From contig JAFYZZ010000029.1 in the NCBI GenBank assembly GCA_017548445.1, positions 1-8,924 of the forward strand: DNA of 8,924 nucleotides, in the 5' to 3' direction. This DNA comes from Bacteroidales bacterium (GTDB lineage Bacteria; Bacteroidota; Bacteroidia; Bacteroidales; UBA932). Both the position numbers and the translations under genes were made by a program. This document shows positions 3,414-8,924 of this stretch, piece by piece; position 1 is the first letter of the stretch; each line of letters opens with the position of its first letter. The notes beneath the pieces are model-generated. The model made no database searches. It was not told where the DNA came from and saw nothing but the letters and a program-made list of their open reading frames with translations.

Positions 3414-3545
3414 TTACCAGTCTTCTCCCGTTCCGGAGAAAGGAGAGTTGTACGGACCCGGGCTAGAGCAGATCAAGCCCTCGGATTGCACCTCGCGCAC
3501 CTCCACCTCGGGAGGGCAATAGGTTCTTTCGATGTTTTCCATCAT
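3414..3545 (-). CDS. 43-residue 'Y..P'-type small peptide, upstream of the lipoprotein
   Basis: The minus strand encodes a 43-residue peptide that begins MMENIERTYCPPEVEVREVQ, continues SEGLICSSPG and ends GTGEDW, with TAA at 3416-3414. It is real by comparison: it aligns without gaps, from the first Met, with the peptide at 5718-5825, sharing M1, E3, N4, Y9, P12, V14, V16, E18, V19, Q20, E22, G23 and S28. Tiny proteins of this kind, with a Tyr-x-x-Pro near the start and an acidic middle, are common and uncharacterised in Bacteroidota. It has no signal peptide or membrane segment and has two cysteines (C10, C26). The tail after residue 28 is Gly/Pro/Ser-rich with a terminal Trp. A consensus promoter lies about 150 nt upstream and the lipoprotein gene 16 nt downstream. 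The function is unknown. Confidence 0.8.
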   Translation of the reverse strand: MMENIERTYCPPEVEVREVQSEGLICSSPGPYNSPFSGTGEDW

Positions 3546-3805: not shown

Positions 3806-4630
3806 CTATATCCGGGCGCCGGTGACCGCGTATTTTTCCTTGAGCAGTTCCACGACCGGGATCATCGCCTTCGGGAACACCTTGCGCAGGTCGATTTCGT
3901 CGCTCTCGGAGAGCACCTGCTTGAGGGCGCGCATGAAGTTGTCCTTGATCTCGGTGGCCAGGTTCACCTTCACGATGCCGTTCGCGATGGCTTCGCGCAC
4001 CTGGTCGTGCGGGATGCCGGAACTGCCGTGCAGCACGAGCGCGACCGGGGTCGCGGCGTGGATGGCGGCGAGGCGCGGGATGTCGAGGTGCGGCGGCTGC
4101 TTGTAGAAGCCGTGCGCCGAACCGATGGACACGGCCAGCGCGTCCACGCCGGTGCGGTTGACGAACTCGACCGCCTGCTCGGGCGTCGTGAATCCGCCGC
4201 CCTGCTCCTGGCCCAGCTTGGCCACATAGCCGAGCTCGGCCTCCACGTTGGCGCCGTAGGGCTTCGCCATCTCGACGGCCTTGGCCGACGTGGCCACGTT
4301 CTCGTCGAACGGCTTCTCGGAGGCGTCGATCATCACGGAGTCGAAGCCCTCGTCCAGGCAGCGCTGGACCAGCTCCAGGCTCGGGCCGTGGTCGAGGTGG
4401 ATGTAGCCCTGCAGGCCGTAGTCCGCCAGCACCTGGCGGCCCATCTTGTAGGCGGTGTGGATGCCCATATAGTCGATGGACGAGCGCGTCAGCTGCAGCA
4501 TCACGGGCGCGCCGGCCGCCTGGGCGGCCTTCGCGACGCACACGAGGGTCTCGTAGTTATAAAAATTGGTAGCCAGGACCGCGGTCTTCTTGGCCTGGCA
4601 ATCATAAAGCACTTCTTTGATGGTTTGCAT
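3806..4630 (-). CDS. Class II (zinc) ketose-bisphosphate aldolase
   Basis: This 274-residue cytosolic enzyme of the FbaA/GatY family cleaves a ketose bisphosphate reversibly to dihydroxyacetone phosphate and an aldehyde. Class II landmarks are all present in order: IHLDHG (77-82, with catalytic Asp80 and zinc ligand His81), SVMIDAS (98-104), NVEAELG (128-134), GSAHG (170-174, zinc ligand His173), LHGSSG (200-205, zinc ligand His201) and the phosphate-binding KVNLATE (221-227). The length is close to the tagatose/fructose-bisphosphate GatY-KbaY type and shorter than the long FbaA type, but the substrate (fructose, tagatose or another ketose bisphosphate) cannot be settled from sequence. It has its own consensus promoter and a strong terminator, so it is probably monocistronic. 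The ATG at 4630 gives the normal family N-terminus. Confidence 0.93.
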   Translation of the reverse strand: MQTIKEVLYDCQAKKTAVLATNFYNYETLVCVAKAAQAAGAPVMLQLTRSSIDYMGIHTAYKMGRQVLADYGLQGYIHLDHGPSLELVQRCLDEGFDSVMIDASEKPFDENVATSAKAVEMAKPYGANVEAELGYVAKLGQEQGGGFTTPEQAVEFVNRTGVDALAVSIGSAHGFYKQPPHLDIPRLAAIHAATPVALVLHGSSGIPHDQVREAIANGIVKVNLATEIKDNFMRALKQVLSESDEIDLRKVFPKAMIPVVELLKEKYAVTGARI

Positions 4631-5717: not shown

Positions 5718-5825
5718 CTAACCTTCTTCATGGCCCCAGGACGAAGGAACCATGCAGCCTTCGGCCTGCACTTCGAAGACGGTTACTGCCGGAGCGTCGT
5801 ACTTGAACTTCAGATTCTCTTCCAT
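5718..5825 (-). CDS. 35-residue 'Y..P'-type small peptide, upstream of the transporter
   Basis: The minus strand encodes a 35-residue peptide that begins MEENLKFKYDAPAVTVFEVQ, continues AEGCMVPSS and ends WGHEEG, with TAG at 5720-5718. It is a clear paralogue of the peptide at 3414-3545: the two align without gaps over their first 28 residues with 13 identities (the M-E-N, Y, P, V-x-V-x-E-V-Q-x-E-G pattern), while their tails differ in length and content. It has no signal peptide or membrane segment, one cysteine (C24) and a Trp in the tail. The gene lies 66 nt after the C10 peptidase stop and 5 nt before the transporter start. Its function is unknown; a regulatory or signalling peptide, or one that is further processed, is conceivable but unproven. 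Confidence 0.8.
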   Translation of the reverse strand: MEENLKFKYDAPAVTVFEVQAEGCMVPSSWGHEEG

Positions 5826-5891: not shown

Positions 5892-7760
5892 TCATTTCCG
5901 GAGGATTTCCAGGAAGGGGAGCGTGCCTTCGAGCGTCTGGCCGGAGCAACCGACCGGCCCCCGGGGCAGAATGAGCTGTTCCAGGCAGGAGCAGTTCCAG
6001 AAAGCCTTCTCTTCGATGGACGCGATAGTCCTGGGCAGACGGAGCCGGAGGAGGTTCTCGCAGTCGGCGAACATATACGGGCCGACGGTGTCCTCCCTGG
6101 AATAATAGCGGATGCGGACGCCTTGTCCGTCCCGGACCAGCGAGTAGCCCGGTCCGTAGTTCAGGCCCCGGCGGGTCATTTCTTTCCACTGCTCATCCGT
6201 CATCTCGTCCATCTTCCATTCTTTCGGTGTCCCCTGGATGCCCAGCAGGAGGTTGCTGTACTGGGACGTGAGGGTCATTCCCGAGGCGTCCCGCTCCACG
6301 TAGGGCTGCGCCCCGACGAGGGGGCCGCCGACAATCTTCGCGTCGGAAAGGTCCAGTTCCATCAGCCTGCCTTCCGTCGCCATCCGGCGGAGGAAGGCGA
6401 TGTCCTCGCCCCGGATCTTGCCGGTGACCTTCAACCGGGTCACGTCGAGTACCTGCTCCGCCGGGATGGCGGCGGCCAGGGTTCCGGCCTTTTTCACCGT
6501 GACTTCCAGCGCGATGGCCTCCTCCGGACGCATCGGGCGCAGGCCGGTGATGCATCCCGAGATGGGGGCCTTTTCCGGCAGGCGGTACCAGCCGTTGCAC
6601 TGGCCGGCCCAGCCGAAGTTGAAGTGCAGGAATCCGTCCTGATAACCGTCGCAGATGAAGAAATGGTCCGGCCCCTCCAGGATGACGGGCCGGCTGGCTT
6701 CCAGTTCGGTGCGGACCCGTTCCGTAAGATTGCGTATGGACAGCTCGACCCGATACCGGCACGCCGGGCTGAAACCCCAGTTGCCGACCAGGGCGTGGCA
6801 GAACCAGAAGGCGTTCGTGCTGGTCCCTTTCGGCGACAGCCGGGAACGCAGGGATGCGGCAGACAGGTAGAGCAGTTCGTTGTCTTCCAGGTCATTGCGA
6901 TAGCCGTCGGCGATGTCGACGGGGATTGGAGCGGCGCCGACTACCGTCAGTTCGCCTTTCCCGGCAGGGTGGACGGATGCCCCGTAGTATTGGAGGACCT
7001 GCGCAAGCGCGACGGCTCCGCAGCCGGCGATGCAGGTGGAATCCCGTCCCTGGAAGGGAACCCTGGGGAATCCCTGGCAGTATTGACCGCTTTGCCCGAG
7101 GGCGATGTCCCCGAGCAGCGGGGCGAGCGTCCCTTCGGGAATCTCCGCGAAACGCCCGTCCGCACAGGATTTGAGCAGCTGTTCGATGATGTGGTTCTCT
7201 TCTCCGGTCTGCACTCCCAGACCGTTTCCGTAGGCGACGACATCCGACGGCGTCGCCCAGGCGAAGACGTCCCGGCGGGGATCATAAAACGCGTGGACGC
7301 CTCCGGCGGAATGCTGCCGGTCCAGATTCCTGCAATCTTCTCCCTGCCGCAGCAGGAAATCCCGGGCAAGGCGCCACGCCGCGCCGTACTCCGGGTTCGG
7401 CTCCACCTGCAGGGTGGCGCCTGCCACCGTTTGGGGCCCTTTGTCCGTCGACACCGTGATCGCCGGGAGCTGTACCTCACCGGCCGCCAGGCACTTGATC
7501 CGGTAGATGATCTCCACCCGCGAGAGGGAACTTGACAGCCGCTTCTTCGTCTGGTCCAGCTTCAGAAACTGGATCCCGTCGACACTTTCCCCCGAGACCT
7601 GATACTGCCACGATCCGGAAATCTCCAGGACATAGCGGACCTCGAGCGCTTCTCCCTGCACGATCTTCTCCGGCTGCTGGATACGGGACGACCGGATCCC
7701 CGCCGACAAAGACAGGGGCAAGAGCAGCAGGAACAGCGTAATCAGCGCGCGACTTTTCAT
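5892..7760 (-). CDS. Secreted C10-family cysteine peptidase with BatD-like N-domain and leucine-rich tail
   Basis: The order of parts in the 622 residues is as follows. There is a signal peptide (1-20, cut near SLSA/G). A BatD-like beta-sandwich follows (about 27-121: EKIVQGEALEVRYVLE...EIIYRIKCLAAGEVQLPAI...). Next comes an I69-like propeptide region (about 124-225), then the C10 (streptopain/Spi) peptidase domain. Its catalytic Cys is C247 in GCGAVALAQVLQYY and its catalytic His is H366 in GPDHFFICDGY; FNFGWAGQCNGWYRL (380-394) matches the conserved N-x-GWxG-x-x-GWY block. The segment GTLAAAIPAEQVLDVTRLKV...LMELDLSDAKIVGG (426-479) introduces a BspA-type leucine-rich tail with about one repeat (562-600). 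It probably degrades extracellular or periplasmic protein. No T9SS C-terminal domain is visible. ATG at 7760 is chosen; a GTG at 7763 is in frame just before it. Confidence 0.9.
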   Translation of the reverse strand: MKSRALITLFLLLLPLSLSAGIRSSRIQQPEKIVQGEALEVRYVLEISGSWQYQVSGESVDGIQFLKLDQTKKRLSSSLSRVEIIYRIKCLAAGEVQLPAITVSTDKGPQTVAGATLQVEPNPEYGAAWRLARDFLLRQGEDCRNLDRQHSAGGVHAFYDPRRDVFAWATPSDVVAYGNGLGVQTGEENHIIEQLLKSCADGRFAEIPEGTLAPLLGDIALGQSGQYCQGFPRVPFQGRDSTCIAGCGAVALAQVLQYYGASVHPAGKGELTVVGAAPIPVDIADGYRNDLEDNELLYLSAASLRSRLSPKGTSTNAFWFCHALVGNWGFSPACRYRVELSIRNLTERVRTELEASRPVILEGPDHFFICDGYQDGFLHFNFGWAGQCNGWYRLPEKAPISGCITGLRPMRPEEAIALEVTVKKAGTLAAAIPAEQVLDVTRLKVTGKIRGEDIAFLRRMATEGRLMELDLSDAKIVGGPLVGAQPYVERDASGMTLTSQYSNLLLGIQGTPKEWKMDEMTDEQWKEMTRRGLNYGPGYSLVRDGQGVRIRYYSREDTVGPYMFADCENLLRLRLPRTIASIEEKAFWNCSCLEQLILPRGPVGCSGQTLEGTLPFLEILRK

Positions 7761-7764
7761 CACT

Positions 7765-7825: not shown

Positions 7826-7925
7826 GTGCGCCTGGTGGTCCAAAATTCCGCAGAGTAGGAGCAAAAACGGCCATTTTTGCGCCTGGTGGTCCAAAATTTC
7901 ACAGACCAGGCGCACCTGCTCCTAC
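7826..7925 (+). repeat. Structured intergenic repeat element A (tag GCGCCTGGTGGTCC)
   Basis: A 21-nt tag-plus-scaffold unit (TGCGCCTGGTGGTCC followed by AAAATT) occurs at 7827-7847 and again 51 bp later at 7878-7898. An inverted, slightly shortened tag, GACCAGGCGCAC, follows at 7904-7915. Between the direct copies lie GCAGAGTAGGAGC and the near-palindromic core AAAAACGGCCATTTTT (7863-7878). A second small tag, GTAGGAGCA (7855-7863), has an exact inverted copy at 7917-7925. The best hairpin pairs 7878-7887 with 7905-7914, but 7826-7836 could pair with the same inverted copy instead. It contains no plausible gene, sits just upstream of the C10 peptidase promoter, and has the same design as element B in opposite orientation. 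Confidence 0.85.
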
Positions 7926-7980
7926 AAAACCTGCTGCCGGAGGGGTAGGAGGAAGTGGCCGAATGCTATGGGGGGGTGAA

Positions 7981-8070
7981 GTGCGGGAGACGTCCCATTC
8001 CGTGGGACGTCTCCCGCAAAAATGGCCGATTTTGCGGGTAACCTGCAAAATTTTGGGACGTCTCCCGCAC
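7981..8070 (-). repeat. Structured intergenic repeat element B (tag GCGGGAGACGTCCC)
   Basis: Read on the minus strand, the tag TGCGGGAGACGTCCCA occurs at 8069-8054 and again at 8018-8003, exactly 51 bp apart. An inverted copy lies at 7997-7982, forming with the nearer direct copy a perfect 16-bp hairpin around a 5-nt loop (7998-8002). Between the direct copies is the scaffold AAAATTTTGCAG, GTTACCCGC, then AAAATCGGCCATTTTTG, which closely matches element A read on the plus strand. The scaffold is shared but the tag differs almost completely, while all copies within each element agree. The interval 7926-7980 between the elements shows nothing clear apart from a further GTAGGAG at 7945-7951. Confidence 0.85.
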
Positions 8071-8100: not shown

Positions 8101-8187
8101 CTGTCGGTGGAGCGTAGCGGAGACGGCATTCCCCCTGGAAGGGGGATGTCGCGCAGCGACAGGGGGTTGGAGAAGCGAATGCTCCGC
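8101..8187. repeat. Palindrome-rich intergenic block
   Basis: Two compact hairpins lie side by side: CCCCCT-GGA-AGGGGG (8131-8145) and TGTCGC-GCA-GCGACA (8147-8161). Before them is GGTGGAGCGTAGCGGAGACGGC (8106-8127) and after them AGGGGGTTGGAGAAGCG. No credible reading frame crosses it. It resembles a dispersed, REP-like intergenic sequence rather than a gene or a single terminator, but only one copy is in the window, so dispersal is inferred. Confidence 0.5.
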
Positions 8188-8193
8188 AAAACG

Positions 8194-8219
8194 AAAAAAG
8201 TCAGGCGACAGCCTGACTT
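8194..8219 (-). terminator. Rho-independent terminator of the tRNA-Ala gene
   Basis: AGTCAGGC (8199-8206) pairs with GCCTGACT (8211-8218) over 8 bp (9 with the flanking A-T pair) across a GACA loop, and on the minus strand runs into TTTTT (8198-8194) then CGTTTT. It lies about 10 nt after the tRNA 3' end. The terminator is enclosed by an outer inverted repeat (8179-8194 with 8221-8236) that includes the tRNA acceptor strand. Confidence 0.9.
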
Positions 8220-8228
8220 CTCGTTTTG

Positions 8229-8301
8229 TGGAGCATAGGAGAATCGAACTCCTGACCTTTTGAATGCCATTCAAACGCTCTACCAACTGAGCTAATACCC
8301 C
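8229..8301 (-). tRNA. tRNA-Ala (anticodon GGC)
   Basis: The minus strand folds into a complete 73-nt cloverleaf: acceptor GGGGTAT/ATGCTCC, D-arm AGCTCAGTTGGTAGAGC, anticodon stem TTTGA/TCAAA enclosing loop ATGGCAT, variable loop AGGTC, and T-arm AGGAG-TTCGATT-CTCCT. The anticodon is GGC, reading GCC/GCU alanine codons. The acceptor has the G3-U70 wobble pair, the classic alanine identity element, and discriminator A73. CCA is not encoded, so it must be added after transcription. A promoter lies upstream and a terminator downstream. Confidence 0.96.
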
Positions 8302-8384: not shown

Positions 8385-8924
8385 ATGAAACACAAGCTGG
8401 TGATTTTTGATCTGGACGGCACGCTCGTGGATACGATCGCAGACCTGGGCACTGCCGTCAATGTGGCGCTGGAAATGAGGAAGTTACCTCTGCATACGCT
8501 CGAAGAATACAGGAAAATGGTCGGAAACGGCGTCCGCAAGCTCGTGCAGCGGGCGATGCCGGAGCAGCTCCAGGGCGATGAAACGCTGCTGGACGCGCTG
8601 CTCGCCGACTTCATATCCTATTATATAGAACATATCGACGACAAGTCCGCTCCCTATCCGGGCGTCCCGGAACTGCTGGTTGAGCTGGACGCCGCCGGTT
8701 GCAAACTGGCCGTCGCCTCCAACAAATTCCAGTCGGGGGCGGAGAAGCTCGTCGGCCGCCTCTTCCCGCAGGTTCCTTTCGTCGCGGTGTGCGGCGGCGG
8801 GGACGGCCGGCCGCTCAAGCCGGACCCGGCCGTGATCCGCCAGATCTGCGACGCGGCGGGCGAGCCGCTGGAGCAGGCGCTGCTGGTGGGCGATTCCGGC
8901 ACGGACATGGCCACGGCCCGGGTC
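8385..8924 (+). CDS. HAD-superfamily hydrolase, phosphoglycolate phosphatase-like (C-terminus cut off)
   Basis: The frame is open for 180 residues to the window edge, so the C-terminus is missing. HAD motifs are all present: motif I FDLDGTLVDT (8-17, nucleophile Asp9 and acid/base Asp11), motif II around Ser112 in LAVASNK, motif III Lys145 in LKPDP, and motif IV VGDSGTDM (168-175, Asp170 and Asp174 for Mg2+). Residues about 18-85 form the alpha-helical C1 cap. This layout is that of the Gph/PGMB-like subfamily, cytosolic Mg2+-dependent phosphatases that act on phosphoglycolate or other small phosphates; the exact substrate is not decided. The start is fixed by motif I lying eight residues in. 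About 30-40 residues should be missing compared with family members. Confidence 0.92.
   Translation, partial: MKHKLVIFDLDGTLVDTIADLGTAVNVALEMRKLPLHTLEEYRKMVGNGVRKLVQRAMPEQLQGDETLLDALLADFISYYIEHIDDKSAPYPGVPELLVELDAAGCKLAVASNKFQSGAEKLVGRLFPQVPFVAVCGGGDGRPLKPDPAVIRQICDAAGEPLEQALLVGDSGTDMATARV

Follow-up and report, generated by a model that had tools for sequence, protein, structure and literature searches.

What are the two similar, oppositely oriented repeats flanked by the start of a Peptidase C10 gene on one side and a tRNA-Ala gene on the other in a Bacteroidales bacterium (assembly GCA_017548445.1, contig JAFYZZ010000029.1)? Both were found in a stretch of 8,924 nucleotides (nt), hereafter the window, and are called element A (plus strand) and element B (minus strand). 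Each carries a 13-nt sequence, the tag, in two direct copies and one inverted copy. We consider it very probable that A and B are non-autonomous hairpin doublets, similar to REPINs or TIR dimers, which are mobilised in trans by HuH-tyrosine transposases of the RAYT/TIRYT type encoded elsewhere in the genome. The parts of the two elements are listed below, with the analysis that located each.

7826..7915, plus strand: element A, a doublet (90-nt scaffold) with the A-type tag (repeat finding, scaffold alignment)
7829..7841, plus strand: tag copy 1 of A, CGCCTGGTGGTCC (scaffold alignment)
7854..7861, plus strand: box of A, AGTAGGAG, the end of an imperfect inverted tag copy (alignment; box/tag 2 pairing counted)
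7862..7879, plus strand: core of A, CAAAAACGGCCATTTTTG (core search, alignment)
7880..7892, plus strand: tag copy 2 of A, the same as copy 1 and 51 base pairs (bp) further on (repeat finding)
7900..7912, plus strand: inverted tag of A, matching at 8/13 positions, altered or decayed (tag comparison)
7981..8070, minus strand: element B, an intact doublet with the B-type tag (repeat finding, scaffold alignment)
8055..8067, minus strand: tag copy 1 of B, CGGGAGACGTCCC (scaffold alignment)
8035..8042, minus strand: box of B, GTTACCCG (scaffold alignment)
8017..8034, minus strand: core of B, CAAAATCGGCCATTTTTG (core search, alignment)
8004..8016, minus strand: tag copy 2 of B (repeat finding)
7984..7996, minus strand: inverted tag of B, 13/13 (repeat finding, tag comparison)

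A and B aligned without gaps over 90 nt, giving one common scaffold of gtg, tag 1 (13 nt), 20 nt with the box at the end, the core (18 nt), tag 2 (13 nt), 7 nt, the inverted tag (13 nt), and cac. The start of tag 2 was exactly 51 bp from that of tag 1 in both elements, and the repeat search showed two direct-repeat families at this spacing (7827/7878 and 7982/8033). These results bear out an earlier note, made from the sequence alone, which had placed two elements with a shared scaffold here. Its statement that three tag copies agree in each element was correct for B, where all three were CGGGAGACGTCCC (13/13/13) and a 16-nt inverted repeat was complementary throughout, but only partly for A, in which both direct tags were CGCCTGGTGGTCC (13/13) and the inverted copy matched at 8/13 positions. 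The short variable box that it described is present, and is in fact one arm of an additional (fourth) inverted tag copy, an imperfect one whose last bases pair with the tag start. B is intact. A looks like a copy, with part of the inverted tag missing, of a tag type presumably older than that of B.

Does the scaffold recur with other tags? Relatives were chosen by the aldolase gene of the window (3806-4630), which matched 56 loci, with a protein identity of 92-98% at 29 of them; these 29 were labelled mostly Bacteroidales or Bacteroidia (two Fibrobacter) and were mainly of ruminant-gut origin. The reference relatives were G001, the best aldolase match (98%), and its genus. The Peptidase C10 gene was also used as an anchor for related genomes, and no relative was found with it. 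When six relatives were searched with the core, the same plan appeared with different tags; locus L032 has a 51-bp period and the tag AGGGTAGCGGTCC. At ≤1 mismatch the core was found in 60/200 genomes (reversed control: 16/200), some of the matches being other than this element. A hairpin of the form GGTCCAN{3,6}TGGACC stood out by its count (up to 52 places per genome, and up to 6 for the reversed control) and by pairs of matches 51-52 bp apart. Core matches in the viral contigs L001 and L002 were rejected, as the tag plan was not visible by eye in either.

Agreement between the tags of one element was measured without regard to tag sequence in 146 contexts of the core from 69 loci, taken in both orientations, with 20,000 draws as the cross comparison. 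Tags at an offset of 51 bp had a mean identity of 0.50, and those at 52 bp one of 0.36; the remaining offsets tried gave 0.22-0.28, and the comparison of different elements gave 0.29. Identity of at least 11/13 was reached in 31 of the 146 contexts at 51 bp, 11 at 52 bp, 1 at 50 bp, and 0 at 53 bp (cross draws: 1.07%). One tandem array in G150 accounted for 13 of the 31 cases; with this array removed, mean identity at 51 bp was 0.46 and 18/132 contexts reached 11/13 or more (cross draws: 0.8%). Tag agreement at 51 bp exceeds chance. We regard this count as fairer than a 21-element alignment, because those mutually related elements were hand-picked, partly for agreeing tags; L325 was excluded from it because of a one-base shift in the register of its inverted tag. 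Between these 21 elements the core was 87% alike and tag 1 61%, whereas within an element tag 1 was 92% alike to tag 2 and 89% to the inverted tag. Three identical tags were seen in 4/21, B included. The earlier note had suggested a scaffold search in related genomes and a comparison of tag identity within and between elements, and both gave results in its favour. It had also held that tags varying inside one element would speak against it. Such variation occurs (the inverted tag of A; the drifted tags of several relatives, e.g. L275, L286, and L288), apparently as decay. Tandem arrays of hairpin units with varying loops were visible at L099 (G017, 52-bp period) and L255 (G150, 51-bp period).

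What could these repeated arms form? As single-stranded DNA, A gave fold z-scores of −3.5 and −4.3 for the two strands, and B −9.0 and −6.7. Two folds are proposed. In the first, side-by-side hairpins would be formed by tag 1 with the box and by tag 2 with the inverted tag; in the second, an outer stem of tag 1 and the inverted tag would enclose a central hairpin of box, core, and tag 2. For the minus strand of B, the calculated energies of the two were almost equal: −31.3 kcal/mol for the minimum with two hairpins and −31.0 kcal/mol for the centroid with the outer stem and central hairpin. The possible pairings of one element cannot all form together; the mutually exclusive hairpins anticipated by the earlier note are supported at the level of calculation. 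Among the 21 elements, 89.7% of cells paired for tag 2/inverted tag and 90.5% for tag 1/inverted tag, with a covariation of 0.65 against a shuffled mean of 0.22. The values for box/core/tag 2 were 84.6% and 0.37 (shuffled: 0.15), and those for the tag 1/box arm 63.0% and 0.35 (shuffled: 0.14).

Strong hairpins, paired stem changes, and an intergenic position would also suit RNA elements, that is, transcribed attenuators, terminators, or mRNA stabilisers in which selection on the RNA maintains the pairing and nearby transposases are co-opted or incidental. We consider such elements improbable here: a direct tag copy at 51 bp would be superfluous for a pure RNA stem, A and B are oppositely oriented between one pair of genes, and Rfam at gathering thresholds gave the tRNA as the sole match over the window (no terminator scan was made). 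Moreover, lineage- and gene-specific tags adjoin transposase genes far above controls, as described next.

Is there a partner protein? PF01797 proteins were present in 46/61 genomes. Among the matches listed, 90 RAYT loci (L108-L197) were examined; L108 and L172 had no open reading frame, leaving 88, in which L155 (chosen reading frame without the HuH motif) and L141 (over-extended start) were retained. A first scan for common hairpins showed a clear shared hairpin at part of the loci only. The two 300-bp flanks compared had a word of 11 nt or longer in common at 46/88 RAYT loci and in 4.1% of 1740 cross pairs. Of the 53 loci with the motif [SD]NHxH[FL], 26 had, within 500 bp, a triple of direct and inverted tags at offsets of 51-53 bp, compared with 0/212 shuffled flanks and 1/800 random 500-bp windows (a RAYT locus counts as two such flanks). 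The sole random-window triple was in L022; a near-identical tag was seen at the RAYT locus L180 (G012:C18), and the L022 triple probably also adjoins such a transposase gene.

The tags of most [SD]NHxH[FL] loci differed from each other, and the near-identical genes at L135 and L156 had one common tag. In G198, every arm of six copies was within two substitutions of CGGGAGATGTCCC, and one copy lay 155 bp from a gene. In G025, copies flanked the gene on both sides and 9/15 fetched places carried the tag type of the gene. G001 had one gene with CTCCTAGGGGTCC and a second gene with CCGATGTCCC. Genes of this kind, each flanked by its own repeat, occur in relatives, and the earlier idea of a mobile or recognition family, its tag perhaps read by a partner protein, is supported by the recurrence of the scaffold with other tags, the agreement within elements, and these adjacent transposase-like genes with matching tags. 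Eight Y1_Tnp genes (L111, L124, L127, L128, L130, L131, L134, and L136) also showed matching hairpins on both flanks, of very different sequence; several of them fall in another large clade of the 85-protein tree, which omits L155 and reading frames below 240 amino acids.

In the partner protein, His52, His54, and Tyr113 were invariant in 46 aligned homologues, all of which (46/46) matched the Y1_Tnp profile at E ≤ 10. Sequence comparison with the PDB yielded two matches that were not believable (E = 0.34 and 1.4), and a fold comparison was therefore used. The predicted structure has the TnpA-REP/IS200 fold, with E. coli TnpA-REP (4er8) as the best solved match at 11-14% sequence identity across the aligned part. 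The model predicts three C-terminal helices (252-266, 270-277, and 281-290), and no Pfam helix-turn-helix domain scored above threshold. In the clade nearest to the tags of the window, the proteins have about 290 amino acids and the motif YVQMN. By analogy, the protein would bind, cut, and move the elements, and we infer that the genome of the window encodes such a transposase.

The linkage also bears on a reading of A and B as double-stranded sites, i.e., operators of palindromic sequence, or recombination sites, bound by a dimeric protein at a spacing of about five helical turns. Palindromes ending in a conserved GGTCC or GTCCC, the spacing of about 52 bp, and the tandem arrays would fit such sites. 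We hold this to be extremely improbable, as the linked genes are HuH-tyrosine genes with mostly different tags, and the stems change as pairs without conservation of their sequence.

Can one locus change its tag? The first G001 gene and a gene of genome G100 were syntenic, with 80.6% identical DNA over 1615 bp, upstream sequence included. The G100 doublet at this gene was CGGAAGACGTCCC, differing from the G001 tag. Between the G001 and G100 proteins, residues 261-280 had an identity of 0.95, residues 61-80 one of 0.5, and residues 141-240 values of 0.5-0.65; the two more divergent regions, 61-80 and 141-240, are candidates for tag reading. B-type hairpins numbered 0 in G001 and 3 in G100, and A-type hairpins occupied 4 places in each, with some A-type copies having equal loops in the two genomes. 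No other protein in G100 was more than 29% identical to the G001 transposase, and the G100 A-type copies look like orphans because it has no further close homologue of that protein. The window resembles G100 in having both tag types. The RAYT block of L138 (G001) was inverted in comparison with L295 (G100) relative to an adjoining 506-bp stretch that is 94.9% identical.

The tag difference between G001 and G100 is an orthoswitch in the sense of Nunvar et al. (2013, PMC3686654), who described syntenic RAYT genes whose flanking REP class differs between related strains, with former classes persisting as relics. Their cases were pseudomonads and stenotrophomonads with GTAG/GTGG REPs, whereas ours are Bacteroidales with a different architecture.

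How did A and B come to their present site? The neighbouring features are given first.

5892..7763, minus strand: Peptidase C10 family protein, flanking gene (gene annotation)
8228..8301, minus strand: tRNA-Ala (GGC), flanking gene (tRNA and Rfam search)
8385..8924, plus strand: HAD-like hydrolase, next gene beyond the tRNA, cut by the window end (anchor for the orthologous site in G100)

At the orthologous site of G100, the tRNA side was 96.4% identical over 278 bp and the A element was present. A differed between the window and G100 at 13 of 90 nt; 11 differences fell in tag 2, the loop, and the inverted tag, with three positions altered in both arms of the stem. When the 25-nt stretches from tag 1 onward and from tag 2 onward were compared, they agreed at 23/25 positions in the window and 17/25 in G100, as would result from the copying of a patch inside A in the line of the window, or from its loss through change in that of G100. 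In G001 the tRNA was lost at this site and other sequence stood instead. These differences, and the decayed inverted tag of A, are what one would expect of passive inverted repeats homogenised by template switching during replication, with no present role for a transposase and the gene linkage a relic. Same-tag copies are nevertheless scattered through a genome, one of them beside a gene, and B is present in the window and missing from the corresponding place in G100, so we regard a wholly passive origin as very improbable; the tags may well be subject to template switching while the elements remain mobile. A single B-type hairpin was observed in G100 on the opposite side of the orthologous A element (L345).

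How does this system compare with known ones? REPINs and RAYTs (Bertels and Rainey 2011, PMC3116915) share dispersed extragenic palindrome doublets, a specific tyrosine transposase, compensatory hairpin changes, and a spacing fixed per group (71 and 110 bp there). Such dispersed, paired palindromic repeats were seen in the relatives, and two copies are visible in the window. By analogy, the system works like REPIN/RAYT. REPINs, however, are inverted REP pairs with a conserved 16-mer, whereas here the spacer core is conserved, the stems vary, and each element has two direct copies and an inverted copy of its tag at 51-53 bp. TIRtrons and TIRYTs (Di Nocera et al. 2013, PMC3733652), with the shared motif GGGGWSAS, are also HuH-tyrosine genes within inverted repeats that have no relation to GTAG REPs and in part make up dispersed families of dimers or clusters; the available part of that paper contains no description of a doublet that has a fixed spacing of 51-53 bp and carries its tag at two direct positions. 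The TnpA-Y1 subclass 2.6 (Quentin et al. 2018, PMC6006769) is likewise from Bacteroidetes, with 'atypical secondary structures' without GT[AG]G and copies elsewhere in the genome, but has the motif YIH[QN]NP and a median of 179 amino acids, against YVQMN and about 290 here. Subclass 2.1 of the same study has long proteins, a C-terminal tail likened to a helix-turn-helix, and an NHVH motif; REP-like sequences were reportedly not found for it, whereas doublets are frequent here. From its sequence, the partner protein resembles subclass 2.1/TIRYT in length. E. coli TnpA-REP (Corneloup et al. 2021, PMC8266576) serves as the model for recognition of a folded single strand, although a bulge and a GTAG foot set its REP apart. 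No description of such doublets in Bacteroidales was recognised in the open-licence literature searched, which was covered in part. The family is new relative to the known kind in lacking the GTAG foot, in its 51-53-bp doublets, and in its co-varying tags.

In the proposed mechanism, the unit would be one tag hairpin with an AT-rich, near-palindromic spacer, 51-53 bp in total, with two units per element and tandem arrays in some genomes. The tag, as stem sequence, would be the identity mark of the cognate transposase. By extension from PMC8266576 and PMC3116915, the doublet would fold as single-stranded DNA, the cognate protein would recognise the stem and then cut and rejoin, and copies would spread. 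The concerted change of the tags may stem from selection, from template copying, or from replacement. More tentatively, and with rather more doubt than belief, we suggest that long TIRYT-like HuH transposases of a Bacteroidales lineage run a lock-and-key system at a fixed pitch of 51-53 bp; a new tag might be copied from arm to arm within an element by template switching on folded single strands, and whole-tag change on an unchanged scaffold might leave dated relic families, as A beside B.

Several results weigh against A and B being doublets mobilised in this way. The GT[AG]G foot was missing from the 21 aligned elements, so the doublets are not canonical REPs; their foot is [GACT]TG followed by C, rarely A or T, and GTAG appears only within the box of some. 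The covariation set was the same hand-picked, related one, and its results are not independent proofs because the arms are copies of each other. Pair or pair-type counts beat the shuffles weakly or not at all: those for tag 2/inverted tag were reached by 200 and 25 of 500 shuffles, and the pair-type number of the tag 1/box arm by 429/500. As a genome tally the GGTCCAN{3,6}TGGACC hairpin (30/61 genomes) means nothing, because the reversed control occurs in more (39/61). No flank word was shared at 42/88 RAYT loci, 27/53 [SD]NHxH[FL] loci had no triple within 500 bp, and 6/15 places in G025 were not of the tag type of the gene: two bore a different GGTCCA-type tag, three were palindromes of other kinds, and one was truncated at the contig end. 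The NCBIfam model NF047646 (REP_Tyr_transpos) matched 6/6 proteins below its cut-off (24.8-49 bits against 80). A clean empty site was not found, the difference seen between the window and G100 being one of presence or absence of B. The gene/tag linkage comes from relatives, and we infer the cognate gene of A and B from them.

Domesticated transposases of the RAYT type and their repeats are widespread and little understood. Here a near-constant scaffold is combined with exchangeable stems, many gene/tag pairs occur in one genus, and one syntenic pair has two tags. The family makes it testable which protein residues read a hairpin stem and how all tag copies of an element change together, and it would give a name to intergenic hairpin pairs of many uncultured gut Bacteroidales genomes.

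Two further observations were made in the window. Next to the tRNA, the stretch 8124-8228 contains the short palindromes CCCCCTGGAAGGGGG and AGTCAGGCGACAGCCTGACTT and is well conserved in G100; the repeat search listed no repeat of 12 nt or more in it. Two short open reading frames on the minus strand, 3414-3545 (43 amino acids, MMENIERTYCPPEVEVREVQSEG...) and 5718-5825 (35 amino acids, MEENLKFKYDAPAVTVFEVQAEG...), have the motif EVQ[SA]EG in common and are possibly paralogous small peptides.
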